This document shows positions 888-39,807 of a stretch of 41,369 nt of DNA, piece after piece. The notes under the pieces are model-generated. The model made no database searches. It had not been told where the DNA came from and saw only the letters and a list, made by a program, of their open reading frames with translations. Origin of the DNA: Prevotella sp. (GTDB lineage: Bacteria; Bacteroidota; Bacteroidia; Bacteroidales; Bacteroidaceae); the NCBI GenBank assembly GCA_017474845.1, contig JAFVGS010000069.1:1-41369 (forward strand), read 5' to 3'. Position 1 is the stretch's first letter. The number at the start of each line of letters is the position of its first letter. Both the position numbers and the translations under genes were made by a program.

Positions 888-1556
888 TTACCTCACGATA
901 TTTGCAGGTCGCCATTTCTCTGGCACTTCGTAACGCTTGGTGTCATCCGTCACCACATCTGGCATAATGGCATCGCGGAAACGGCGTTCATTCTTATACA
1001 TAAGAACAGGTTTACTGCTATGATGCGTAAGGTTATCTTTCAGGTCACAGCTAAAGTTTGATGGCGGGAAATAGACCTTAATTCGCTTCTCTGGATATTG
1101 CTTTTGAATGAACTCTAAGGGTGGAACAAGATCGCTGTCGGCACTGACGAGCACAATGGTATCAGTTGCATCAAGCACACAGTAGGCAATCATCCTCACG
1201 GAAATATTCACGTCGGTTTTCTTTTCTTCAGGACGCGAAATAGCATAATGACAATTGGGGCATTGGATTTGCTTGTCAAGATACTTGCCACGCACGACCT
1301 CGAAACGGTTGCCATTGATAAGCTTGTTTGCATTGAGAAAAGCACTCTGGCGACTGCTCTTTTCAGGGTTAAGCGGTGAGGCAGTAAAATAGATAACTTT
1401 CTCCACTTCCTGTCCTTCACCAAGAAAACCTTGGCAAAGTTTCACCATGTTAATCCAGTAATAGTCACCCCACTGCGGTTCGTTGCGCTTTGTGCGACGA
1501 AGACCATAGTAGAAGTTGAATCATCCGTCAATGTAGAATGTTACGCGTTGTGCCAT
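888..1556 (-). pseudogene. NYN-domain (LabA/DUF88-like) nuclease, broken by an in-frame TGA
   Basis: From ATG at 1556 the frame reads MAQRVTFYIDG, then TGA at 1523..1521, then FNFYYGLRRTKRNEPQWGD and on to 888. The NYN-family start is YIDGFNFYYG, whose Asp is a catalytic metal ligand. Removing one GAT from the local GATGAT restores the canonical text, so a 3-nt tandem duplication created the stop. Other NYN features persist: a CPNC zinc-type pair, and VLVSADSDLVP, which carries the second acidic cluster. The part after the stop could in principle start at the internal ATG at 1448, but that would lack the first catalytic strand. These proteins are PIN-like RNases. Here the gene is most likely inactive. 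Confidence 0.75.
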
Positions 1557-1821: not shown

Positions 1822-2080
1822 TTAGACTATTCCATTATCTCCCTTATTAGCTGATGACTGAATTTCCTGCTTGACTGTTGTCAAAAAATCCTCCGTGTAC
1901 TTCTTCTGGCGGTCAGAGATAATCTTACAACTGAACTGGCTTTGGCTACAATTGATTGTAACCCTGCCCATCACTGGCACGATGCCGTGGTACCCTCCCC
2001 GTGACACTCAGTCTCGTGGTCCCTCCCTTCTCCTTACCTCTGTTCACGTAGAACAATACTGAAAATGTGCTTCTACTCAT
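1822..2080 (-). pseudogene. tyrosine recombinase (integrase) remnant, N-terminal arm domain only
   Basis: From ATG at 2080 the frame reads MSRSTFSVLFYVNRGKEK, the characteristic start of Bacteroidetes tyrosine recombinases. The next family block, IVPVMGRVTINxxxSQFSCK, continues in a different frame from about 1995. Between the two blocks is an insertion of about 35 nt that looks like an imperfect tandem duplication of GGGAGGG(T)ACCACG. After FSCKI the frame runs into unrelated sequence and stops at 1822, so the core-binding and catalytic domains are absent. It is a decayed integrase of some earlier mobile element, outside the prophage ends, and is not the integration enzyme of this phage. Confidence 0.75.
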
Positions 2081-2237
2081 GTTTCCTACTCGTTTTTAAA
2101 TTCCAGCTGCAAAACTACTATCTTTTCCTGGTTCTATTGCTATGCAAAATATAGCAGTTCGCGGAATCAGAAACGGGTGGTGAGAGGTGCGCTATTATGC
2201 CCTATATTGCCTATCCGATTAACGAAGTTTAACCCGT

Positions 2238-2242
2238 CAATT
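2238..2242. repeat. candidate target-site duplication, left copy (CAATT)
   Basis: CAATT here matches CAATT at 39808..39812 just outside the opposite prophage end. Four bases (CAAT) are unambiguous. The fifth could belong either to the duplication or to the phage end. Mu itself makes a 5-bp duplication. Confidence 0.55.
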
Positions 2243-2250
2243 ATAATCCG

Positions 2251-2354
2251 CAAAACGATTTTTTCGCCGAGCCTAAAACGAAACGGTTGATATTTGCACC
2301 TCAAAAGGTAAAACGAAACGAGCAAAATCAGCCTCAAAAAATAAAACGAAACGG
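2251..2354 (+). promoter_or_regulatory. right-end transposase-binding sites (attR-side)
   Basis: Repeated motifs read inward: CAAAACGAT at 2251..2259, TAAAACGAAACGG at 2274..2286, TAAAACGAAACGA at 2309..2321, and TAAAACGAAACGG at 2342..2354. The last two share a longer unit with CCTCAAAA upstream. The site at 2274 and its neighbour CCGAGCC at 2267..2273 recur inverted at 39694..39715. The core resembles the CGAAA part of Mu's MuA site, and the closely spaced layout is like Mu's right end. Confidence 0.7.
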
Positions 2355-2393
2355 ACTTCACTTTGGCAAACACACAATTCAGAATAACACATG

Positions 2394-2430
2394 AAAGAGC
2401 CTCGAAAATCAAGCGACTTCGAGGCTCTTT
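2394..2430 (-). terminator. terminator of the methylase/TS-like operon
   Basis: AAAGAGCCTCG at 2394..2404 and CGAGGCTCTTT at 2420..2430 form an 11-bp stem just past the stop of the gene at 2451. T-rich sequence lies on both sides (CTCTTT on both strands), so it may work in either direction. It separates phage genes from the end sites. Confidence 0.7.
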
Positions 2431-2450
2431 CTGTTGTTTATAAATTCAGG

Positions 2451-3089
2451 TCAGACATTGAGGTCAAACTTTACGTTCTCATCTCCATTGAGTAAATCCT
2501 TTGTCCGCTCGATATTGTTCTCGTAGATATGAACGTTTCCGAGATTCAGCGTGATAGATTTGAGAGGCAAATCAATCTGTCGAGCCATCAAATAGAGATG
2601 GTAAATATCAGAAGGCAAACCCAAATTAGCGTCGCTGCTTCTTTGGTAAGCGGACACGACAAGTTCACCTTCATCAATCTGGAACTGAACCAAACTCAAA
2701 CAAGGAGCCTGGTTACTTTCCGCATTGGTCTCACCCAGGAACAGCACATAGTTCTTGCTGTTGCGCTTCTCGCGGTTTATCTTCGCAATGAGCGGTGGCA
2801 GCTTCTCGAAGTAGGTCGGGTAGCTGTTCACCAGAACAGAGCCGCAATAGTCCCACCAGTTGATGCCAACGTCACGGTATCGTTCCACGTTCCGCTCACC
2901 CTGCATAAACAACTGCAGCTCATTCTTCAGCTTCTTTCTCGCTATGCCGTGGCTCTCGAATATGTCGAGCAGGTCGGCAGGGGCCAGTGACAACTGCTCA
3001 TTGAGCAGGTAGCGTATGTTTCCTTTCTTGTTCGTCTGGGTCTTTCCTTTCTCCAGAACCTTGCCCAGTATCTGATAGTATTTGTTCAT
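2451..3089 (-). CDS. thymidylate-synthase-family protein, candidate dCMP (hydroxy)methyltransferase
   Basis: The 212-aa product aligns by eye along most of thymidylate synthase (usually about 264 aa). Matches are YYQILGKVLEKG at the start, ELQLFMQGERNV near 57-68 (ELLWFLQGDTNI in E. coli), GINWWD near 75-80, APCLSLVQF with candidate catalytic Cys130, YQRSSDANLGLPSDI at 148-162, and GNVHIYENNIE at 184-194 with His187 and Tyr189. Asp161 replaces the TS Asn177 that reads the uracil ring. In known dCMP hydroxymethylases, and in TS mutants, Asp there favours cytosine. The His after the catalytic Cys is Leu, and the Arg pair that binds phosphate from the other subunit is not evident, so activity is uncertain. 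It follows the adenine methylase by 25 bp on the same strand, at the prophage end where Mu carries com/mom. A role in DNA modification against restriction is inferred. Confidence 0.65.
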   Translation of the reverse strand: MNKYYQILGKVLEKGKTQTNKKGNIRYLLNEQLSLAPADLLDIFESHGIARKKLKNELQLFMQGERNVERYRDVGINWWDYCGSVLVNSYPTYFEKLPPLIAKINREKRNSKNYVLFLGETNAESNQAPCLSLVQFQIDEGELVVSAYQRSSDANLGLPSDIYHLYLMARQIDLPLKSITLNLGNVHIYENNIERTKDLLNGDENVKFDLNV

Positions 3090-3114
3090 CGTTCAAACGG
3101 TTTTAGAATGTCAT

Positions 3115-3945
3115 TCAAGCGGCTTTCGTATATAGCATGATGTCCGTGTAGGAGGCGCTATAGTTCATGTGGGCGTTGAACTCACGACGCTGGCAGTCCT
3201 TGAACGGGTTGCCAAGGTCCGGGTGCTTACCCATCCAGTCGCACAGTTCAACGATAGAGGATTTGTTCGAGGTAAAATAGATGAAGCGATGTCCAGCAAG
3301 AACCGTCAGCACATCAAGGTAGTCAGACAGCTTCCAGTACATCTTGTAGGTCTTGCTGTCCGTGCTCAGATAGGGAGGGTCAACCAGGAACACCACGCCT
3401 GGCACGTCCTTGTACTGCTCAAACACCTCCCTGTAGTCGCAGGAGGTAATGGTCAGCCCGTCGAGGTAGTCCAGGCACGGTTCATAGTCGGTCGTCCTTA
3501 TATTATTATATAGTGTCTCTTTCTCCAGATCCTCGAACTCGGTAGCGTACTTCATAGAGAACATGATCGAAGAGGACAGCGTGATATAGTCGATGTAGCC
3601 GTAGTCGTGGAGGTATTTGCGGACACAGGACAGCACGCGTTCCTTTGCTTCTCCCAATATAGGCTTGTGGCGTGGAACATCCACTATCTCCCTCAGTTCT
3701 GCCAGCAGCGCATTAGTAACCGGCAATGCCTCCAACCGCTGGCAATAGCCGTCAAAGTCATTATATACCACAGTGGAATGCGGTTTCTGGCACTTGGCTA
3801 TGTGTGATAATAAGCCGGAGCCGCCAAATAGGTCCACGAAGGTCGTGCCGTCAGGGAACTGCTGGAGCACCTTGATGTACTCCTTGGCAAACATCCGCTT
3901 CTGTCCCTGGAAAGGAAGCGGTGCTGATAGATATTGCTTTCTCAT
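3115..3945 (-). CDS. D12-class DNA adenine-N6 methyltransferase (Dam-like)
   Basis: This 276-aa protein shows the D12-class order. PFQGQKRMFA is near the N-terminus, motif I DLFGGSG (S-adenosylmethionine binding) is at 38-44, and the catalytic DPPY is at 189-192. It would methylate adenine N6 in phage or host DNA. The recognition sequence cannot be read from the protein. No restriction endonuclease is nearby, so it is an orphan methylase, probably for protection or regulation. It is the first gene of a two-gene unit with the TS-like gene and has its own promoter-like TAACTTTG at 3968..3975, so it may be expressed in the lysogen. Confidence 0.9.
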   Translation of the reverse strand: MRKQYLSAPLPFQGQKRMFAKEYIKVLQQFPDGTTFVDLFGGSGLLSHIAKCQKPHSTVVYNDFDGYCQRLEALPVTNALLAELREIVDVPRHKPILGEAKERVLSCVRKYLHDYGYIDYITLSSSIMFSMKYATEFEDLEKETLYNNIRTTDYEPCLDYLDGLTITSCDYREVFEQYKDVPGVVFLVDPPYLSTDSKTYKMYWKLSDYLDVLTVLAGHRFIYFTSNKSSIVELCDWMGKHPDLGNPFKDCQRREFNAHMNYSASYTDIMLYTKAA

Positions 3946-3967
3946 TGTCTCGCTAATTTTGTCACCG

Positions 3968-3975
3968 CAAAGTTA
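3968..3975 (-). promoter_or_regulatory. -7 box upstream of the methylase/TS-like operon
   Basis: TAACTTTG on the minus strand (plus CAAAGTTA) lies 22 bp before the methylase start. No good TTTG -33 element sits at the expected spacing, only TTTCG near 3992..3996, so the promoter is half-supported. Confidence 0.4.
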
Positions 3976-4012
3976 TGGTCATTCAGCGAGACGAAAGAGG
4001 ATTCACACAGAA

Positions 4013-4255
4013 TCACACTGCACCAATCGTGCAGTGCCTTCCAAACCGCTTGATCAGGTCATATACCTTGCGCTCGCACACATGGTAACGGTCGTGGAGC
4101 ACCGACACGATGTAAGTCATCTTGTCCCCAGCCTCATGCATGCGCCTGTAGTCCTCATAAAGTGCCAGATACTGGCAGTCTTCAAGCCTGAAACCAGCCG
4201 AATTTAGCCTGTCAATAGGCTCCTTACTCAATTTTATTATCTCGTAGTAAGTCAT
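4013..4255 (-). CDS. small HTH-like phage protein, 80 aa
   Basis: The ATG at 4255 (MTYYEIIKLSKE) is chosen over an upstream TTG that would add 11 residues and lie in the folded element next door. The C-terminal half, from about residue 30, reads LYEDYRRMHEAGDKMTYIVS, then SVLHDRYHVCERKVYDLIKR. This spacing resembles the small protein at 29324..29608, which has EERIMAIIRR in the equivalent place. Both look like compact helix-turn-helix DNA-binding proteins. It lies between the tail operon terminator and the methylase promoter, and control of the modification genes (as Com controls mom in Mu) is a guess from position only. Confidence 0.6.
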   Translation of the reverse strand: MTYYEIIKLSKEPIDRLNSAGFRLEDCQYLALYEDYRRMHEAGDKMTYIVSVLHDRYHVCERKVYDLIKRFGRHCTIGAV

Positions 4256-4283
4256 TTTCAAGATTTTTTTGTACCTTTGTACC

Positions 4284-4412
4284 GCCAATCATTTATTCGA
4301 CAAAAAAATACCCTTATGGAACGGCGAAGGGCATACAGCCCCCAGCTGCGTTCCGTAAGGGTACGTCGTTAATAAATGATTGGCGTCTATATTAACAGGC
4401 TGGGGGCTTTTT
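4284..4412 (+). ncRNA. folded element, possible plus-strand small RNA with nested stems
   Basis: Three complementarities are nested. GCCAATCATTTATT (4284..4297) pairs with 4371..4384 over 14 bp. TACCCTTATGGAACG (4309..4323) pairs with 4349..4363 over 15 bp with one G-U. AGCCCCCAGC in the inner loop (4337..4346) is complementary to GCTGGGGGCT at 4399..4408, which is followed by T-rich sequence. The last pairing would form a pseudoknot or a terminator. TACCTTTG at 4272..4279 would place the transcript start at about 4284, exactly at the first stem. No good -33 element is seen. The minus-strand reading of the middle stem is a good terminator and may be its only function. Confidence 0.4.
4302..4363 (-). 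terminator. terminator of the 18-kb leftward late (tail) operon
   Basis: On the minus strand the 15-bp stem formed by 4349..4363 and 4309..4323 is followed by a T7 run (plus A7 at 4302..4308). It lies about 80 bp beyond the last frame of the tail operon and before the next minus-strand gene. Confidence 0.7.
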
Positions 4413-4445
4413 CTATGCCCACCCCCAAGGGCTTTCCGTCAGAGT

Positions 4446-4664
4446 TTATTCATCCCGATAGTCATCCGGATTGAATGCGTCTTTCTTCCGCCATCCCGCA
4501 TCCAGCGTTTCTTGGATAAAGCGCATGGCCTTCGTGTAGAAGTCCGCCAGTTCCTCCAGTCTTTCAAACACCCGATACTTCGGCTGCTAGTCAGTACCGA
4601 ACTTGAACTTCACAGGCTGGGGTTCCCCGTCCAGAGTCCCAGCATCAGCTTCCGCCCATTCCAC
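4446..4664 (-). pseudogene. small tail-fibre-associated frame interrupted by TAG
   Basis: After the tail fibre the minus strand has a second frame overlapping its last 55 nt. From a possible GTG at 4664 it reads VEWAEADAGTLDGEPQPV, then KFKFGTD, then TAG at 4589..4587, then QPKYRVFERLEELADFYTKA and on to TAA at 4448..4446. Both parts have protein-like composition and the second is a plausible amphipathic helix. No ATG start is available and the family is not recognised. It may be a fibre-assembly accessory that acquired an amber codon, a read-through product, or two chance frames. TAG ends normal genes in this phage, so the code is not changed. Confidence 0.4.
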
Positions 4665-7600
4665 ACCTTGCGCAAGGGTTGAATGGTAATTCCTTGGCTC
4701 TTTGAAAGTGCATACTGAACAACCTTCTTGATATTGCTGAGAGTCAACGCAGAAGTGTCAGAGGTCGGATTGTCTAAGTCATCAACAGCCTGAGCTGAAT
4801 GGGTGCCGAAGATAATCCATGCCCCAGCCGCGAAAGCTGCATCAACCTGTGCCTTGTAGTAGTCAACGGTTCGGGTGCTGCTGCCGAAGTTCAGGAACAT
4901 ACGGCGAATATTGAACGGGTTTTTTATTTCGGCGTTGTAAGGGTCATTGTCTGTCGTGGCTGTCAGTGCGAACTCTACCCAATTTTTTATCACGCCAACA
5001 ACATCTGAGTTGGTGCCGCTGCTGCCGGGATATACTACGCAGGAATCATTGAAGATACCAGCATCACGGAATGCCTCTATACATTTCACAAGGCTCTGCT
5101 CGCAAAACGCAGCCCCCTGATAGGTATAGCCCTGAGAACCACCAGTGTACCAACCCTTGTGAATAGGATGTAACTGAAAATGAAATCCCTCACGTTGCCA
5201 TGCTTTTATGATGTCAGCCTTGTATTGTGGAATTACTTGTGTGTCATTAGTCGGATAGTTGCTGCCACTCCAGTTTCCATCACTTGTCGGGATGACGGCA
5301 AAGTCACACTTTCCTGAAAGTTCATCACAAATAATCTTGATTTTGGCAGGATAGTTTTCGGTAATCTCGCCGCTTTCCTCGGTAATCTTGAAATCATCAT
5401 CAACCCATGAAACAGCGTATTTATTAAACTTCTCAACAAACTCTTCGTCAACAGAAGACGATGTGCCACCACCACTTGAAGGATTTAGATTCTCAATATA
5501 TCCATCGGAGTGGAAGTTTATGCGAACATATTTTGCATTTTCAGGAATATTATCACCCCAACTCAATGTCACATCCGCTTTCGATTCACTCTCTCCCATA
5601 ATATAGCCGCCTGGGGCAGTAATGACGTTCTTTTCTTCATCAAAGAAAAGGCAATACGGAGCATCAGAACCAGGTCGGCAATAGCAATTTTTGAGCACAA
5701 TATCTTCTGTGGTGCCAAAAAAGACGCTGTTGGCTGATACAAAATAATCCAACGGTATAAGGTCTGTCATGCACCAGTGCATTATTTGAGCAGCACCCGC
5801 AGTGCCTACAGAACCATTAGTTCTTATGAATTTTCCAACAGCAGTCGCAAATGGGAAAGTGTTCCTCTCAAGGGAAGACATTTTAGATGTCAAGTTATTC
5901 ACTGATGTATTAAGTCGTCCTATGTTGCCTTCAGCAGACCGCAAACGAGTTGCATCTTTGGAAATTGGGAAATTGTCAATATCAGTCACATAGTCGCCAT
6001 TTAACAGATAGTCACTGACCTTTGATGGTGCAATGTATACAGAACCACCATCTTCTAATTGTGACCAATCAACAACACAGTAACTTTCATTCGATGTCCT
6101 GATAACTTCCACCTCACCTTTCTGTTTCTGACTGTTAAAACGAAGACGTTGTGTTCCCTCACCTTCATTGAAAAAATACAAGTTAACATACCATGTGCCA
6201 TTGACATTTCTCCTGATATTCTGAATACAGAATTTAGAGGCATCATCCTCACCAAGGTCAGCAGGACTGATATATAACTCTTTGATAATTCTGTCAATAT
6301 CTCCAATCAAGGAACCAGTAGCCGATGGTTGAAAAATGCTTCTGTAATATACCTTGTTAGTCTTATCAGCCACCCCGCCGCTCTTGACAAGGTTATCACT
6401 CCCAGCAGTCGGCACATCATCGGCAGCAGCAATGGTACTCTCCAGCGTGCCAACCCGCCCATCCAACAAAGTATCAGCTTCCTCACGCAAAGAGGCCTCA
6501 TCAGAAACGGCGTTCTCACGGGCTATGGCCTCGCCATCTATGCTCTCCTGTAACGACGCACTGGCCTTTTCCAAAGCCGTAACCCTTCCATCCAACAAAT
6601 TGTCTGCGGCAACACGAAGGGCGGTTTCTGCGGCAACGGCACTCGATATGGCAGAGTTCATCTGGGCAGTAGTCGAATATCCGCCAAGGTCAACAGTGGT
6701 GGAACCTATCTGCTCCCATGAATAACGGATAACGCCGTTCTGCGTGGTCGTTATGGTGATGAACTCATCCTTGACATTCGACGTGTCGGGATTGGTGGAG
6801 GGCACAAGATATATCTTGTGCCTTGTAGAGGAAGATGCCGTGGGAAGCTGTGCTACAACAGCATATTCAAACTGGTTGATGGCATCAATAAGGGCATTGA
6901 CCTGCTCCTTTGAGTAGGTCTCCGTCTTTAGGTAATAACCAAGAAGATCGGTGCGGATGCTGGCAATGGCATTTGTAAGAAGGCTGTTGTTGACGTAGTT
7001 CCAAGGAGTCCAATCGCCAACTTCTGTCGGCAGCGTTCCACCTGACAGTTTCGCACTTCGGTAGATAAGGAAAAGGTCGCTGTCCGAATGAGCACCAGTA
7101 ATTTGACCGCTATCATCTAAAACATAGTGCGTGGCCATTACCTGCGTCACCACATGCCCCATATTGTCTGATATGACAGACATCACGCCGACCTTCAGTT
7201 TGTGCGATGTTCCATCATACACGGTATAGTATGCAGGCACACCAGACTCCGACCCTGCGAAAGCAGGATTTGGTGTCAACTGGCCACCATTAAAAATGAT
7301 GTCGTCGATGTCGTCGATGGCTATCTCGTTAAAAACAGTTCCCGACACCGCCGCCTGTGTCATAACGGCATCCGTTCCAGAGCCGGGTCGTGAGACGATG
7401 CTTACTGCACCGACTTTCTCGCCAGTGGCAAACTGAGGGTTGACTTCCGACAATCCCTCATTAAATTCTTGCCGTAGTCCGTTAAGTGCATCAAAAACAC
7501 CTCCACTTGTGATAGGTTTCTCGCTGTCCTCAGTAGGTGTTTCGTCATATCCTCCTACAATACCCTTCGCCATGATGTCGGTGGCCTTGTTGCCACGCCA

Positions 7601-32722: not shown

Positions 32723-32919
32723 ATTATCTCAAATTGAACATTAAAATGATATTCTTTCCGTAGGCGGCCAACTTGAACCTCCTTGTTTGGATCTTCGCCG
32801 TAAGGAATGAAGATGGTGCGCTCCTTGGTGTTCACCCTCACACCCTTCTTCCGCAGTCTGTAGAGTATGTTGGAACGGCGTTTCCACACACCCTTCTTCC
32901 AGTTCCTGGCCATAGTCAT
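32719..32919 (-). CDS. small basic protein, 66 aa
   Basis: ATG at 32919 overlaps the stop of the ATPase gene (ATGA), so it is chosen over the longer frame. A second ATG lies two codons later. The product MTMARNWKKGVWKRRSNILY, RLRKKGVRVNTKERTIFIPY is strongly basic and ends in QVGRLRKEYHFNVQFEII. It is probably a nucleic-acid-binding accessory of the early region. The family is not known. Confidence 0.6.
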   Translation of the reverse strand: MTMARNWKKGVWKRRSNILYRLRKKGVRVNTKERTIFIPYGEDPNKEVQVGRLRKEYHFNVQFEII

Positions 32920-33557
32920 TTCTGTTTTGCTTCGTTTCCTAATGTGTACTTGGCTGCACCCTCTTCCCAAATGGTAAAAGGCACACCTGGCTTATCCATG
33001 AACCGACTCTTGCAACTGGCACGGAAACCCTCAACCATGATTTTCACGTCGGCGTCATACTCAACAGCACGGGCCACGCGCCCTCCTGGATGCTGTCCTT
33101 CGGCATGGCTCACGAAAATGAGCAGCTTATTGCAGAAGCGTTCCTTCAGTTGCTGATACCCTCTGTAGGTCAGACCGCTATACTGCAGACTGTCAATAAT
33201 GACGATGCCCGGACTTTTACGTTTGCTCAGACGCTCTGTCAGTTGCTCAATTCGCTCGCGGTCCAGCACAAGAAAACGACGGCTTACCTCACGCATTCCA
33301 TGACGCAGCATTGACTTCTGGACGCTCAGACCGGTGCCTTCCTCCAGACTGTCATAAATCACCTTGTCAAACCGGCACAGATACTTTGCCAGTTGCATCA
33401 CAAAACTCGTCTTGCCGTTGCCGGGGCTTCCCCAGATGATCCATGTGCCAGTCTTAGCCGGTTTGCCCAATGAAGCCTCCCAGTCGCCCGTAAAGTCGAG
33501 CGACGGGATGTTCATGTTCAGGATGTCCGTTGGACTGTAGGCACGTTTTAACTTCAT
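32916..33557 (-). CDS. RecA/DnaB-like P-loop ATPase, 213 aa
   Basis: Walker A GSPGNGKTS lies near residues 43-51 and Walker B IVIIDS near 118-123. The order and the SLQYSG after Walker B fit a RecA/DnaB-fold ATPase. IFVSHAEGQHPGGRVARA resembles the sensor loop of this fold, and the C-terminus is truncated relative to DnaB helicases. It follows the MuB-like ATPase by an ATGA-type overlap. Two ATPases in tandem after the transposase is unlike Mu; a role in replication or target handling is inferred. Confidence 0.75.
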   Translation of the reverse strand: MKLKRAYSPTDILNMNIPSLDFTGDWEASLGKPAKTGTWIIWGSPGNGKTSFVMQLAKYLCRFDKVIYDSLEEGTGLSVQKSMLRHGMREVSRRFLVLDRERIEQLTERLSKRKSPGIVIIDSLQYSGLTYRGYQQLKERFCNKLLIFVSHAEGQHPGGRVARAVEYDADVKIMVEGFRASCKSRFMDKPGVPFTIWEEGAAKYTLGNEAKQK

Positions 33558-34432
33558 TGCATTTTCTTGATTTTTTCGATTTCCGTATATACTCTGCGCA
33601 GACCGCCGTCGCTGGCGTTCACAATCTGCATGATGTTGGTTCCTTCCGGAGCGTTCACCTTCGCTACGATGGCAGCCTGAGCCTTCAGGAACTTCTGGCG
33701 CTCTTTCTCGTCTTCGGGGGTCACACGGCTGAACGTGTCACCGAAGCGGCTGAGCATTTCAGCATAGCCCACCTTCAGACACTCCACATTGCGGTCTATC
33801 TTGGCCCGTAAGCCGTCGGCACCCATCATATACCAGCCACAGCAGCGCTCCGTGGCATTCCACAAGGCCTTCAGTTCCAAGAATGCCTCGTACTGCAGGT
33901 CGCCTGCCTCGTCAAGTATGACAAGGGGAGTGTCGATGGTGCGCAGATACTCCACAAGGTCTTCATAGATGTCGCTGTAACGACCGTAACTGCCCACGCC
34001 AAACTCCTTGGCTATCTTACGGACCAGTTTCAGTTTGGTCTTCACCTGCGAGCAGTCGATATATACGGCGTTCTTGTGGCTTTTGGCATAGGCCCGTGCG
34101 GTGAAACTCTTGCCGATGTTCGGAATGTCGCACAGTATCGCGCTCAGACCGCTTTCCTGACATACGGTCAACTGCTGGGTAATAAACACCCACGTCGGCG
34201 TTTCTGCGGCATTCCAGGCTTGTTCCTGGCGCAGGGTCACGCCCAGCCGACGTGCCATGCCCACCCAGTTGGCATCGCTCACCTGACGCTCCCAGGTGCC
34301 TTTTTTGATGCTGTTATATACTGACGCCGATATGCCAAGGCTCACGGCGTGTTTGTTGTCACTTGGATAGTTCTCACGGTCGGCCACAATGGCTGCCGCT
34401 ATCCGGCTTTTAATCTCGTCTGTTATCTTCAT
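33554..34432 (-). CDS. MuB-like transposition AAA+ ATPase, 292 aa
   Basis: The N-terminal about 70 residues include a helix-turn-helix (SASVYNSIKKGTWERQVSDA). The P-loop reads CDIPNIGKSFTA at about 101-112, a MuB/IstB-type Walker A. Walker B LVILDEA is near 170-176. The C-terminus has GDTFSRVTPEDEKERQKFLK, then NIMQIVNASDGGLRRVYTEI. MuB binds target DNA, activates the transposase and prevents self-insertion. It is directly downstream of the transposase, as in Mu, with a dispersed palindromic element in the 89-bp gap. Confidence 0.9.
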   Translation of the reverse strand: MKITDEIKSRIAAAIVADRENYPSDNKHAVSLGISASVYNSIKKGTWERQVSDANWVGMARRLGVTLRQEQAWNAAETPTWVFITQQLTVCQESGLSAILCDIPNIGKSFTARAYAKSHKNAVYIDCSQVKTKLKLVRKIAKEFGVGSYGRYSDIYEDLVEYLRTIDTPLVILDEAGDLQYEAFLELKALWNATERCCGWYMMGADGLRAKIDRNVECLKVGYAEMLSRFGDTFSRVTPEDEKERQKFLKAQAAIVAKVNAPEGTNIMQIVNASDGGLRRVYTEIEKIKKMQ

Positions 34433-34521: not shown

Positions 34522-36633
34522 TTATAAACTGCCCACGGCTTCGCGCTTGTAACGCGCCGTGTCCATATAGTCTGAATAGTCCTCGTCCGGCTGCTCCACA
34601 GGCTGCGATACCGCACGGGCTTCCACTTGCTCAATCTCCCTGGCATCTTCTTTCTTCATGACTACCACTGGGGAAATCTTTCCGTCCTTCATCATCTTGT
34701 CGAACTGGCTCACATACTTGGCCTGCTCTGTGTATGCGGCGCGGTCGGCGTCGGTCTGCTCCATGGTCGAAGTATTGTAGCGTTCCGCTTGCTGACAGGT
34801 GCAGATGTATTCGTCACCTTGCCAGATATACACCTCCTTAATAGTGCCGTCTGGTTCGGGAAGCCAATAGGCATCTACCTGCGTGTTGCCGGGCTTCAGC
34901 CTACGTATCACCTGAGGCTCGGGCAGCACATACTGGTTGTACATCACCGTGCAGTACATATTGCGACGGAGGGTTGTCGTGGTCTTCTCCCCTATATAGC
35001 GGTACAGATACCACTTCTCAAAAGGTTTCAGGTCGGGGTTCTGCATCATGCTGAGCACATCCCAGCGTGTCATGCCTTTGAAACGCTTCTGGTCAGGGTG
35101 CAACTCATGGTTGAATTCATCAATGTCGCGCATATTGCCTGCTACAATCTCGTCCCACGTGTACTCCCTGTGCTTCCACTTGTTGTTTGTCTCATCATAC
35201 ACCTTCTCCTCCTTCGGGCGGTTGGTCTCCAGCCTCGCATAGAAACGCCCGATGTTGGGGTGGTTGCGCTTTTCCACGCCATACCTAAACTGGCGGTTGT
35301 TGTGCTCCATGTGCTTCTCCTGGCTGTTGCCGGGGTTGCACCAGCGAACCATCGGGAACAACACTTGGGCCTTCATCCAGCTTTCCTTGAAGCGGTTCAC
35401 CAAATGATGCTCGACCTCAATCTCGCCAGGCATGTTCCAACCTTCACGAATAAGCAACTGGAACATATTGCGCACGCAATCCACATATAGGCTTGGTTCC
35501 TTCTTGCGAGCGTATGCATGACCGATGATGCACCCACTCAGCACGTCACAGATGAAGTAGCCATGCACACGCTGACTACCCTTCATCAGGAATGGCAGGT
35601 CACGGTCGTCCGCCGAAATCTTGCTCAGCGCGAAGAAAGGCGCATGGCGCAGATGGTGAGGACGGTATGTCTGGCTGAAAGTCCACTGCGTGTCATGATA
35701 CTTTGCGCGAAGAGCCTTGTGCTCCGGCGAATTCAGTATGTTCGAGATGGTGGCAGGACTAAGCACCAAGGGGTTGCCTTTCCTGTCCACGAAGTTCTTG
35801 GGGTCATACATTTCTCCAGTCACAGGATCCACCACCTCCACCTCTCCAGTCACAAACTGGTTGTACGCTTCGCCAACCACGGTATTGAACGGACGGGTGC
35901 CGTCAGGTTGACAGTCGAGGCTCAACACGAGACGCACAACCTCTATGGTCTTCTTCAAAGAGTTCTGGTTCTTGAACTTCTTGCTGATAAGCGACTCATA
36001 GCCCTCCCTCTGGTAAGCATTCACACGCTCACGGAAGCGGTGAGGACTCAGTGGCAGAGTGTGGCCGAACTCGGCCTGGTAGTAGCTGATGGCTCCAGCC
36101 ATCTCGCCCCAGTTGATAGTCTGGCCGTTCATGGCCTTGCGCATGATGTTCGTGTCTGCCATCACACTCACAACGGCCTTCAGCACCGAGGCGTTCACCG
36201 TGTACTCGTTTATCTTGTCAGGTGGCAGGACACTGCCGTCCTCAAAACGGAAACGGGTATAAAACGACCGGGCTTCTGCGTCGATGCGGTAATGTTGGCC
36301 GAACCAGTCCTTCAGAATGTTCTGCTCCATTTCTCCGTACTTAGCCTTGATGCGGTCCTTGAAACGTTGCGGAAGCGTGGCAATCTCAATCAGGGCATAA
36401 TTGCCCAGACCTTTGCCTGCTCTCACTACATTTATTTGGACTCGCCGTAACAAATTCTTATAGTTGGCGGCTGTCATGATGGGGGCAAGCGTCTCGGCTG
36501 GCAGCATCGACGGGGCGACACCGTTCAGACATCGACTGTGGCTGTAGTCCGCCTTACCATTGACGATAACAGGACGGTCATCGTAGGTCAGGTCGTTGTA
36601 CGAGATACACAATATCTTGCCGTAATACTCCAT
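34522..36633 (-). CDS. MuA-like DDE transposase, 703 aa
   Basis: The N-terminal part (MEYYGKILCISYNDLTYDDR) would contain the end-binding domains. The retroviral-integrase-like core holds candidate acidic residues in ISADDRDLPF (342-345) or YFICDVLSG (Asp363), GEIEVEHHLVN (404-408) and GNSQEKHMEHNNRQF (Glu439/443). This is followed by RNHPNIGRFYAR and a Mu transposase C-terminal beta barrel (MYNQYVLPEP; VYIWQGDEYICTCQ). The C-terminal 60 residues are charged and may contact MuB. It is slightly longer than Mu A (663 aa). It catalyses integration and replicative transposition, and the likely substrates are the inverted AAAACGAAACGG sites at both prophage ends. Confidence 0.93.
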   Translation of the reverse strand: MEYYGKILCISYNDLTYDDRPVIVNGKADYSHSRCLNGVAPSMLPAETLAPIMTAANYKNLLRRVQINVVRAGKGLGNYALIEIATLPQRFKDRIKAKYGEMEQNILKDWFGQHYRIDAEARSFYTRFRFEDGSVLPPDKINEYTVNASVLKAVVSVMADTNIMRKAMNGQTINWGEMAGAISYYQAEFGHTLPLSPHRFRERVNAYQREGYESLISKKFKNQNSLKKTIEVVRLVLSLDCQPDGTRPFNTVVGEAYNQFVTGEVEVVDPVTGEMYDPKNFVDRKGNPLVLSPATISNILNSPEHKALRAKYHDTQWTFSQTYRPHHLRHAPFFALSKISADDRDLPFLMKGSQRVHGYFICDVLSGCIIGHAYARKKEPSLYVDCVRNMFQLLIREGWNMPGEIEVEHHLVNRFKESWMKAQVLFPMVRWCNPGNSQEKHMEHNNRQFRYGVEKRNHPNIGRFYARLETNRPKEEKVYDETNNKWKHREYTWDEIVAGNMRDIDEFNHELHPDQKRFKGMTRWDVLSMMQNPDLKPFEKWYLYRYIGEKTTTTLRRNMYCTVMYNQYVLPEPQVIRRLKPGNTQVDAYWLPEPDGTIKEVYIWQGDEYICTCQQAERYNTSTMEQTDADRAAYTEQAKYVSQFDKMMKDGKISPVVVMKKEDAREIEQVEARAVSQPVEQPDEDYSDYMDTARYKREAVGSL

Positions 36634-37975: not shown

Positions 37976-38047
37976 AGTCTCGATGTTTATTTATTAGCGT
38001 TTCTTGACTTTTAACTGTTATTTATCGTTAGTCTCGCCAAATTTTCG

Positions 38048-38077
38048 TACCTTTGGCGCGGAGTTAATATCATTAAC
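38048..38077 (+). promoter_or_regulatory. repressor promoter -7 box with operator-like inverted repeat
   Basis: TACCTTTG at 38048..38055 points to the repressor gene. GTTAATATCATTAAC at 38063..38077, a perfect 6-bp inverted repeat with a 3-bp centre, lies on the predicted start site. A copy of this arrangement controls the gene at 37099. A good -33 element is not seen. Confidence 0.6.
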
Positions 38078-38083
38078 ACGCTG

Positions 38084-38114
38084 CAAAGATAATAGGAAAT
38101 TTCCTAAATTCAAA
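38084..38114 (-). promoter_or_regulatory. early promoter with palindromic operator in its spacer
   Basis: On the minus strand TTTG (plus CAAA 38111..38114) and TATCTTTG (plus CAAAGATA 38084..38091) are 19 bp apart, a consensus promoter for the early operon. The spacer contains the perfect 14-bp palindrome TAGGAAATTTCCTA (38093..38106), the obvious repressor site. This promoter faces the repressor promoter, so the two could also interfere by transcription. Confidence 0.75.
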
Positions 38115-38165
38115 AACTTTTTGAGGATTTTTTCTCAATTAGGGCGATTTTTTTGGTTTTTGACT

Positions 38166-38810
38166 ATGATTTTAGACAGAATAAAGCAATTTATCGACTC
38201 GAAAGGCATTGCAGTCAGTGCCTTCGAAAAGAGCATAGGAATGTCCAATGCCTCATTTGGAAAGTCCTTAAGGAGTGGTGGAGCCATCGGCACGGATAAA
38301 TTAGAAAATATCCTAAGTGTATATCCAGAACTTTCGCCTATATGGCTGGTAACAGGGGAAGGAAATATGCTTCGTGAGAGCATACCACAAAAAGCAAAAT
38401 TCACAGACGACCCCAAAGAGGGTATTCCACTCATACCATTTAGTGCTATGGCTGGTGCCCTGACTGGAGAGCAGTCTGTTCTGGAGTATGAGTGTGAGCG
38501 TTATGTGGTACCGGCCTTCAATGGTGCCGACTTCCTGATGCCGGTAAAAGGCAATAGCATGATGCCGACATATATCTCTGGCGACATCGTGGCTTGCCAA
38601 CGTGTCCCTATGTCTGGCTTATTCTTCCAATGGAATAAGCCCTACGTCCTCGACACTACGCAAGGACCGCTCATCAAACGAATAAAACCTGGATCTGACA
38701 AGCAGCACGTCCTCATTGTCTCTGACAACACCGACTATGACCCCTTTGAACTGCCATACGAAGACATCCACGCGGTCGCACTCGTCATCGGTCTCATACG
38801 TCTCGAATAA
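38166..38810 (+). CDS. phage repressor, XRE helix-turn-helix plus S24/LexA-like peptidase, 214 aa
   Basis: ATG at 38166 (MILDRIKQFIDSKGIAVSAF) is the natural start. The upstream open frame crosses the promoters. The N-terminal helix-turn-helix (SAFEKSIGMSNASFGKSLRS) binds DNA. A Bacteroidetes-typical YPELSPIWLVTGEGNML follows. The C-terminal S24 domain has a cleavage-type MAG (96-97), Ser131 in KGNSMMPTY and Lys171 in LIKRIK. DNA damage could trigger self-cleavage and induction. It is divergent from the transposition operon, as the Mu c repressor is, and likely binds the palindromes at 38063..38106. Confidence 0.9.
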   Translation: MILDRIKQFIDSKGIAVSAFEKSIGMSNASFGKSLRSGGAIGTDKLENILSVYPELSPIWLVTGEGNMLRESIPQKAKFTDDPKEGIPLIPFSAMAGALTGEQSVLEYECERYVVPAFNGADFLMPVKGNSMMPTYISGDIVACQRVPMSGLFFQWNKPYVLDTTQGPLIKRIKPGSDKQHVLIVSDNTDYDPFELPYEDIHAVALVIGLIRLE

Positions 38811-39693: not shown

Positions 39694-39807
39694 CCGTTTC
39701 GTTTTTCTGGCTCGGTTTCCCTCATTCTCTCTAACTCGTTGTAAACAAACGGCTTTCGGCTCATTGGTGGCTCTCCCTCATTCTACCACTTCGTTTTACG
39801 CCCCATA
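39694..39807 (-). promoter_or_regulatory. left-end transposase-binding sites (attL-side)
   Basis: Read inward on the minus strand, TAAAACGAAGTGG lies at 39798..39786 and AAAAACGAAACGG at 39706..39694, 92 bp apart. CCGAGCC (39715..39709) precedes the second site exactly as at 2267..2273. One outer site followed by a long gap resembles the L1 to L2 spacing of Mu. The terminus 5'-TATGGGGCG at 39807 matches the other end in position. No gene is supported from 39468 to the end. Confidence 0.7.

Follow-up and report, generated by a model that had tools for sequence, protein, structure and literature searches.

Does the thymidylate synthase (TS)-like enzyme encoded at the right end of a Mu-type prophage in Prevotella sp. 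act on cytosine, and does its product end up in phage DNA? The prophage lies on contig JAFVGS010000069.1 of assembly GCA_017474845.1, a genome in 93 contigs that is 59% complete; we analyzed the whole 41,369-nucleotide stretch, referred to here as the window. The original prediction described two neighboring open reading frames (ORFs) as a DNA-modification pair in the position held by com and mom in phage Mu: a Dam-like methylase and a TS-family enzyme bearing Asp161 in place of the Asn with which TS reads uracil. Both ORFs are present as described (Table 1). Its observation on the enzyme proved right, and stronger than originally stated; its interpretation, a modified cytosine in phage DNA, is plausible; and the pairing is looser than claimed.

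Profile searches place the TS-like product in the TS family, with a match to PF00303 (Thymidylat_synt) of 75.5 bits against a cut-off of 24.3 and a match to the TS profile phrog_160 at 2.2e-30. We mapped its residues by phmmer to TS entries in the PDB, by MAFFT with E. coli ThyA and T4 gp42, and by hhalign with two sets, one ThyA-type and one cytosine-type. All four alignments (phmmer, MAFFT, and two hhalign) put Asp161 at position 177, where it aligns with Asn177 of E. coli ThyA and Asp179 of the T4 deoxycytidylate (dCMP) hydroxymethylase. The residues predicted to be retained, Cys130, Arg150, Ser151, Asp153, His187, and Tyr189, correspond by MAFFT to E. coli 146, 166, 167, 169, 207, and 209. 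In E. coli numbering the protein carries Lys21, Glu58, Trp80, Cys83, Tyr94, Lys126, Asn127, Cys146, Leu147, Arg166, Ser167, Asp169, Asp177, His207, and Tyr209, and the family also keeps, by MAFFT, the counterparts of T4 Glu60, Trp82, Tyr96, and Cys148.

These features hold across homologs, which we read in a viral set (80 IMG/VR loci, the best 80 of 223, plus hankyphage; its alignment has 84 rows, including the window and two window copies) and a genome set (80 genome contigs, the best 80 of 229, plus locus L174), with some contigs present in both. Asp161 occurs in 162 of 162 loci, 81 per set, and the six retained residues are likewise invariant in all 81 viral-set and 81 of 81 genome-set loci; by MAFFT, the superfamily residues Cys146, Arg166, Ser167, Asp169, His207, Tyr209, and Glu58 are all kept in both sets. 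Leu131 replaces His147 in all loci read. The C-terminal tail that seals the folate site of TS has no counterpart, and 160 of the 162 genes end at 211-213 codons, the exceptions being L142, with 201 codons, and L026, in which a stop at codon 5 is followed by a later ATG.

The missing His147 and the missing tail are further marks of cytosine-type enzymes and add support to the assignment. According to the accessible part of a metagenome association study, the two positions that best mark TS genes from phage contigs with modified cytosine are 177 and 147, with mostly Asp at 177 (PMC8670742), and the T4 dCMP hydroxymethylase is described as lacking the TS tail and using Glu60, Trp82, Tyr96, and Cys148 (PMC6400193, available text). 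In our comparison of 16 proteins, the window protein included, the seven other Asp177 proteins, only some of known function, all carry a residue other than His at 147, and six of the eight Asn177 proteins have His147 (the two without it are SPO1 gp29 and EnteroCCS1).

Table 1. Features at the two ends of the phage in the window
Feature	Position	Strand	Basis or remark
TS-family protein, 212 aa, proposed dCMP C5-(hydroxy)methylase	2451-3089	-	PF00303, alignments, invariant active-site residues
D12-class (Dam-like) DNA adenine methylase, 276 aa, DPPY	3115-3945	-	PF02086, phrog_56, PADLOC MTase_II
Probable helix-turn-helix protein, 80 aa	4013-4255	-	ATG at 4255; ORF 4013-4288 if TTG is the start
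TAnnTTTG promoter-like box	4272-4279	+	In front of the RNA; motif count in relatives
Structured RNA: stem P1, stem P2, loop-to-tail pseudoknot P3, then T-run	4282-4413	+	Covariation; divergent from the helix-turn-helix-methylase-TS operon
Terminator-like hairpin AAAGAGCCTCGAA/TTCGAGGCTCTTT	2394-2430	-	By eye; directly after the TS stop
Three GTTTCGTTTTA repeats	2274-2352	-	Pattern search; perhaps right-end transposase sites
Single near-copy of the GTTTCGTTTTA repeat	39696-39706	+	Mirrored orientation, near the left end
MuB-like protein	33554-34432	-	phrog_310/phrog_296 matches; left end of Mu-type phage
MuA-like transposase	34522-36633	-	phrog_310/phrog_296 matches; left end of Mu-type phage

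Compared with characterized enzymes, the protein shows both shared and differing features. With T4 gp42, and with Aes144 gp42, it shares Asp at 177, a non-His residue at 147, the catalytic Glu, Trp, Tyr, and Cys, and the missing tail, but T4 Arg123, Arg124, and Asp145 are replaced in the window family by Lys, Asn, and Gln. With ThyA, from E. coli or from the host itself (contig C89 of the window's genome, G000), it shares the family, the N-terminal half, and the QRSxDxxLGLP motif, and ThyA is its closest relative by profile; it differs by Asn177 to Asp, His147 to Leu, Arg126 and Arg127 to Lys and Asn, the absent tail, and a length 52 residues below that of E. coli ThyA. The cytidylate (CMP) hydroxymethylase MilA is likewise cytosine-type and has Lys for Arg126, but it shows an Ala in place of Ser167, is extended by a large additional region at the C-terminus, and serves secondary metabolism (PMC5175136, available text). 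In a 36-row tree the window family is monophyletic (100/100) and falls to the ThyA side of a branch with support 99/97, apart from T4 gp42; its stem measures 5.58 changes per column, and several rows are long branches. Constraining the family to join five cytosine-type rows costs 10.3 log units, which the approximately unbiased (AU) test does not reject (p=0.163). The switch from Asn177 to Asp is likely to have been independent of the T4-type enzymes.

A phage collection yielded 21 records with TS matches at 80-90%, comprising Bacteroides phage p00, the jmh-series hankyphages, BX-TP, BKO1-TP, and two unnamed phages, and a next best match of 27%. In a class-level sample of 295 genomes the family appeared, among the matches listed, in two, the window's and one congener, the next matches being ThyA-like at 54 bits or less; an identical TS is found in Prevotellaceae bacterium UBA2744 (L093), which points to a Bacteroidales host. 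Across 25 long TS-bearing records TS identity is 80-96%, whereas likeness to the window's transposase is 58-64% in three, 41-43% in six, 29-40% over ~190 aa in 13, and undetected in three. Among 1500 pairs from 122 loci, synonymous sites are near saturation in 87%, and the TS protein has changed less than the methylase in 97.5%. The TS ratio of nonsynonymous to synonymous change (dN/dS) is 0.046, as measured in the 67 of 1500 sampled pairs that pass the saturation filter. Given this identity alongside divergent transposases, the saturation, and the low dN/dS, the TS looks old and constrained rather than recently spread; it is under strong purifying selection.

The methylase, which ends 25 bp upstream of the TS start, is of the D12 class, and Dam-like as predicted. 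It matches PF02086 (MethyltransfD12) at 31.6 bits (cut-off 22), the DNA methyltransferase profile phrog_56 at 9e-32, and PADLOC MTase_II at 171 bits, and DPPY is present in 124 of 124 near-full-length relatives read. Against the Dam model TIGR00571 it scores 25.3 bits, below the cut-off of 114.85, so its target site may differ from that of Dam.

The pair is common, occurring in 130 of the 162 loci in both gene orders, but not obligatory. Counting methylase relatives, some of them partial, that share the TS strand and lie no farther than 3 kb from TS, and treating loci cut by contig ends as lacking one, we found 67 of 81 in the viral set (28 ahead of TS, which is the window's order, and 39 behind it) and 63 of 81 in the genome set (37 ahead, 26 behind). 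The window-type methylase is missing at 14 of 81 viral-set and 18 of 81 genome-set loci, 17 of these 32 lying away from contig ends, and at one of them (L139) another D12 methylase occupies the slot (PF02086, 78.5 bits). Gene order switched at least four times on a quick TS tree, or 20 times if "none" is scored as a third state. Seen from the methylase, TS adjoins 29 of 37 loci. At seven of the remaining eight the sequence stops no more than 168 bp past the methylase, which leaves L252 as the one locus with space for a TS. The methylase stands without TS at L252, L275, and L278, the last with its methylase match in two frames. Eight long records whose transposase is at least 59% like the window's include six with the methylase and two with TS; a third TS match among them (26%) is not of the window's TS family. 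Here G320, G321, and G322 carry the methylase but no TS, G321 and G322 apparently being one and the same phage whose methylase is in two frames; the sequence of G324 breaks off 3 bp past the methylase gene. We accordingly reject a fixed TS-methylase unit, as each gene occurs alone. The loose pairing, the switching order, and the other D12 methylase in the slot show the slot instead to be modular, as an anti-restriction island would be. The accessible text of the hankyphage paper PMC12629997 names a DNA methyltransferase among counter-defense genes.

The surrounding phage, recognized by phrog profile matches, is of Mu type and also encodes a CI-like repressor (38004-38810), a terminase, a portal, and tail genes. 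In the 11 relatives listed, DNA similarity to the window breaks off at 2451-2515, where it reaches the TS stop or falls just short of it, and the GTTTCGTTTTA repeats lie about 100-180 bp past that stop (2451), with the transposase and B genes at the other end; the methylase and TS genes therefore occupy the place of Mu com and mom, as proposed. The window contains four GTTTCGTTTTA matches versus 0.55 expected, a number reached in 1 of 100 shuffles. The hairpin between the TS stop and the repeats was not returned by a terminator scan, whose limit its loop exceeds. Likeness to Mu extends to the right-end location in a transposable phage and to DNA modification, which for the window phage is a proposal, but the matches of the genes at 2451-4288 include no Com or Mom homolog, and the chemistry would differ. 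One further resemblance comes from the small helix-turn-helix (HTH)-like protein, which matches phrog_17790, of unknown function, at 1.5e-26: its relative at L317 weakly matches the Mor family PF08765 (E=6.8e-4, 20.1 bits, below the cut-off of 24.9), a match that a profile scan does not return for the window copy. HTH relatives lie upstream of TS, at a loose threshold, in 73 of 81 viral-set and 64 of 81 genome-set loci. Hankyphage p00 (BK010646) has TS, methylase, RNA (L084, 7521-7654, minus strand), and, by tblastn, an HTH relative in the same right-end place, but with TS before the methylase, and it carries a diversity-generating retroelement (DGR) with RT-3 RNA. Phages of this type are called globally ubiquitous and widespread in Bacteroides in the portions of the hankyphage literature available to us.

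The original prediction did not include what is now the firmest new object at this locus, a newly recognized structured RNA beside the operon. A long hairpin stands in the window between the tail genes and the HTH gene, and in many relatives its arms differ in sequence yet pair at similar spacing. It is preceded by TAnnTTTG, which we take to be the Bacteroides -7 type promoter motif. Of the 136 loci that have the HTH gene together with 230 nt of upstream sequence, a count that includes the window and near-copies, 131 carry this box on the opposite strand no more than 90 nt from the HTH start, 124 of them at a distance of 14-16 nt; mononucleotide shuffles give 2.6%. Exact arms of at least 7 nt occur in 127 of the 131 box-bearing loci, and a G-run followed by T's after the 3' arm occurs in 116 of the 127, both being counts without a shuffled control.

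Covariation identifies the element as an RNA structure. We aligned 60 dissimilar members with MAFFT, the rows having been picked for the P1 arms and the G-run (the 3' side of P3) and not for P2. Over 34 pairs, 92.6% of cells are paired in the 60 rows versus 39-45% with the partner slid, and cells changed on both sides number 451 versus 152.9 (sd 12.7) in shuffles, counts that related rows inflate. Such double changes affect 10 of 13 pairs in P1, 12 of 12 in P2, and six of nine in the pseudoknot P3 (GCCCCCGGT with GCCGGGGGC), where 98.1% of cells are paired. RNAalifold draws small local hairpins at the P3 places instead of the pseudoknot, and the two may alternate. The window RNA folds with z=-7.7, and a model built from the alignment (R1) scores the window, itself one of its 60 rows, at 114.2 bits on the plus strand versus 25.6 on the minus strand; in other loci the reverse-strand score reaches 37.5 bits. 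No match was found among 4227 Rfam models over window positions 1900-5000 with E up to 1. An Rfam scan of eight loci returned RT-3 alone, elsewhere than the RNA and in five of the eight (L084, L042, L064, L007, and L053); at L084 the DGR template repeat flanks it on one side and the reverse transcriptase on the other. Two other identities for the element were considered. An invertible DNA element at 4282-4413 was rejected in favor of an RNA given the many G-U pairs, the pseudoknot with its T-run, and the difference of 114 versus 26 bits between strands, and a leader or riboswitch of the HTH operon is disfavored because the better-scoring RNA strand points away from that operon.

Elsewhere, in phages as in genomes, the RNA is usually found next to DNA-modification genes and oriented divergently from them. 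R1 matches four of 295 genomes in a class-level sample and 34 of 301 in a family-level one, the window's genome being among the matches in both. Among 31 RNA loci read within ~1.5 kb, 25 have the HTH gene, 22 the window-type methylase, and 23 TS. At L275 and L278 the RNA accompanies a methylase that has no TS beside it, and the TS loci L139, L153, L160, L112, L115, L073, and L079, with a weaker case at L156, have the RNA but no detected HTH gene. L281 and L282 have only another D12 methylase (PF02086, 69.7 and 100.5 bits), and at both, as at L139, this gene begins at a distance of ~30 nt from the RNA and is oriented away from it. R1 has no match at other TS loci, such as L026, L052, L076, L014, L021, L067, and L040. 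The usual common denominator of the RNA loci is DNA-modification genes at the phage right end, and the RNA may regulate these genes, serve the phage otherwise, or block restriction. Three of the 31, L320-L322, lack HTH, methylase, and TS; their RNA-model matches of 73-81 bits could be remnants or independent copies, the one at L320 beside a Mu F-like phage gene and those at L321 and L322 among chromosomal-looking genes.

We propose that the HTH-like protein, the D12 methylase, and the TS-family enzyme, in one apparent operon with the structured RNA transcribed the opposite way, constitute a right-end DNA-modification island. The TS-family enzyme would use methylene-tetrahydrofolate to modify C5 of dCMP, more probably by hydroxymethylation than by methylation because the tail that seals the folate site is absent. 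Host kinases would then raise the modified dCMP to the triphosphate, part of which would enter phage DNA, and modified cytosine and adenine methylation together would blunt host restriction. This is our best explanation, and we hold it tentatively, at somewhat less than an even chance. The family membership, the residue pattern, the strong purifying selection, the recurrent neighborhood, and, by covariation, the RNA structure are established here, and from them the substrate, the product, its entry into DNA, the anti-restriction role, and any part of the RNA in controlling the enzymes are inferred. Among the points in favor, the related hankyphage is reported, from RNA-seq, to express all its genes (PMC12135933, available text). 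Several observations weigh against the explanation. The phosphate-clamp residues Arg126 and Arg127 are Lys112 and Asn113 in every member read, and by MAFFT Gln127 stands at the T4-type Asp145, a residue close to the reactive carbon. By hhalign the protein is nearer to the ThyA-type set (99.0%, E 3.5e-18) than to the cytosine-type set (96.0%, E 3.8e-9). TS and methylase each occur alone, and the modification genes come last on the strand that carries the tail genes, a late position for an enzyme working on nucleotides. Pathway partners are also wanting. T4, by the accessible account, makes hydroxymethyl-dCTP with its own dCTPase and kinase (PMC6400193). The temperate, transposable window phage has no recognized dCTPase, dNMP kinase, or glucosyltransferase partner: in agreement with the prediction, no convincing nucleotide kinase or glycosyltransferase, and no dCTPase, was found among 43 window ORFs scanned, several of them without a known family and not every one run on both libraries. 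Thymidylate_kin, the one kinase family searched there, scores above its cut-off in 0 of 25 TS-bearing phage records, with three weak matches below it. A candidate kinase at 32916-33557 (Thymidylate_kin, E 6e-5, below cut-off) was rejected as rather a RecA/DnaB-type ATPase; it matches the ATPase profile phrog_6891 at 2e-76 and has a GxPGNGKT loop, and its weak PDB matches include RadA and thymidylate kinase.

The late position and the unrecognized kinase and dCTPase would suit an enzyme that modifies dCMP without its product being built into DNA, changing the nucleotide pool late in infection as a dCMP drain, a signal, or an inhibitor. A DUF4406/nucleoside 2-deoxyribosyltransferase-type protein in the same phage (32010-32333, minus strand) fits such a role, but the family occurs in only nine of 25 TS-bearing records, which also led us to reject it as an obligate partner, and the frequent company of a DNA methylase points to DNA; we regard this alternative as unlikely, though it is the strongest of those weighed here. 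That the protein is a diverged TS supplying dTMP from deoxyuridylate (dUMP) during infection would agree with ThyA as nearest profile and with the thymidylate synthase annotation in hankyphage records; the invariant Asp161 and the losses of His147 and the tail make it improbable. The host moreover encodes a full ThyA of its own (425 bits), so that thymidylate supply is not an obvious need. Equally improbable is a non-catalytic relative kept for another role, such as binding, which the changed phosphate-clamp residues might suggest but which sits poorly with catalytic residues invariant in 162 loci and a dN/dS of 0.046. Action on the cytosine of polynucleotides, DNA or RNA, instead of free dCMP, for which the absence of the Arg126/Arg127 clamp from all members read, the methylase company, and the late, Mom-like position could speak, is the least credible option and very improbable: Arg150, Ser151, and Lys112 could still hold the 5'-phosphate, SPO1 gp29 and Microbacterium phage proteins in the 16-protein comparison also vary at 127, and no TS-fold enzyme is known to act on polynucleotide cytosine. 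A MilA-like enzyme for the ribonucleotide CMP fares only slightly better. Lys112 falls by MAFFT where MilA has Lys133 for Arg126, but Ser151 is kept where MilA has Ala176, and the change A176S shifts MilA to dCMP, according to the available text of PMC5175136.

A broader version of the island hypothesis, which we consider doubtful on present evidence, is that many Bacteroidales transposable phages share a new island with a ThyA-derived TS independent of T4's, cytosine modification that dispenses with a phage kinase, and an RNA that controls or assists the genes or hinders restriction. The RNA would then be an element conserved in structure while its sequence turns over, transcribed against an interchangeable HTH/methylase/TS operon. 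If the enzyme does modify dCMP, there would be a large set of temperate gut phages with modified cytosine, seemingly without T4's kinase and dCTPase, that disguise their DNA, and the availability of inducible strains makes for a direct test. The covarying RNA, having no Rfam family, is a checkable object and could show how phages time or carry out DNA protection. By term search, "thymidylate" is absent from the main texts of PMC12135933, PMC6199706, PMC10367356, and PMC12629997, and a search by title and start of abstract, with subscription literature mostly outside its scope, returned no work on this TS or RNA among the matches listed.

Some smaller observations concern the genome and the flanks. 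A second apparent copy of the phage on contig C74 might have indicated transposition from the window contig (C14), but we reject this. In all 16332 bases compared, of 41331, C74 is the window contig in exact reverse complement, and its other matched genes keep an identical offset, so that it seems to be a duplicate arising in assembly. A GPSGSGKT-loop protein follows TS in L035 (8926-10032) and stands directly after the HTH gene in L317 (2095-3129), where it is an ABC ATPase with a GNAT domain; it may belong to the host flank or be other cargo of the slot. In the window, the flank outside the phage end encodes an NYN-domain protein (888-1448, minus strand) that matches PADLOC HEC-09 at 123 bits.

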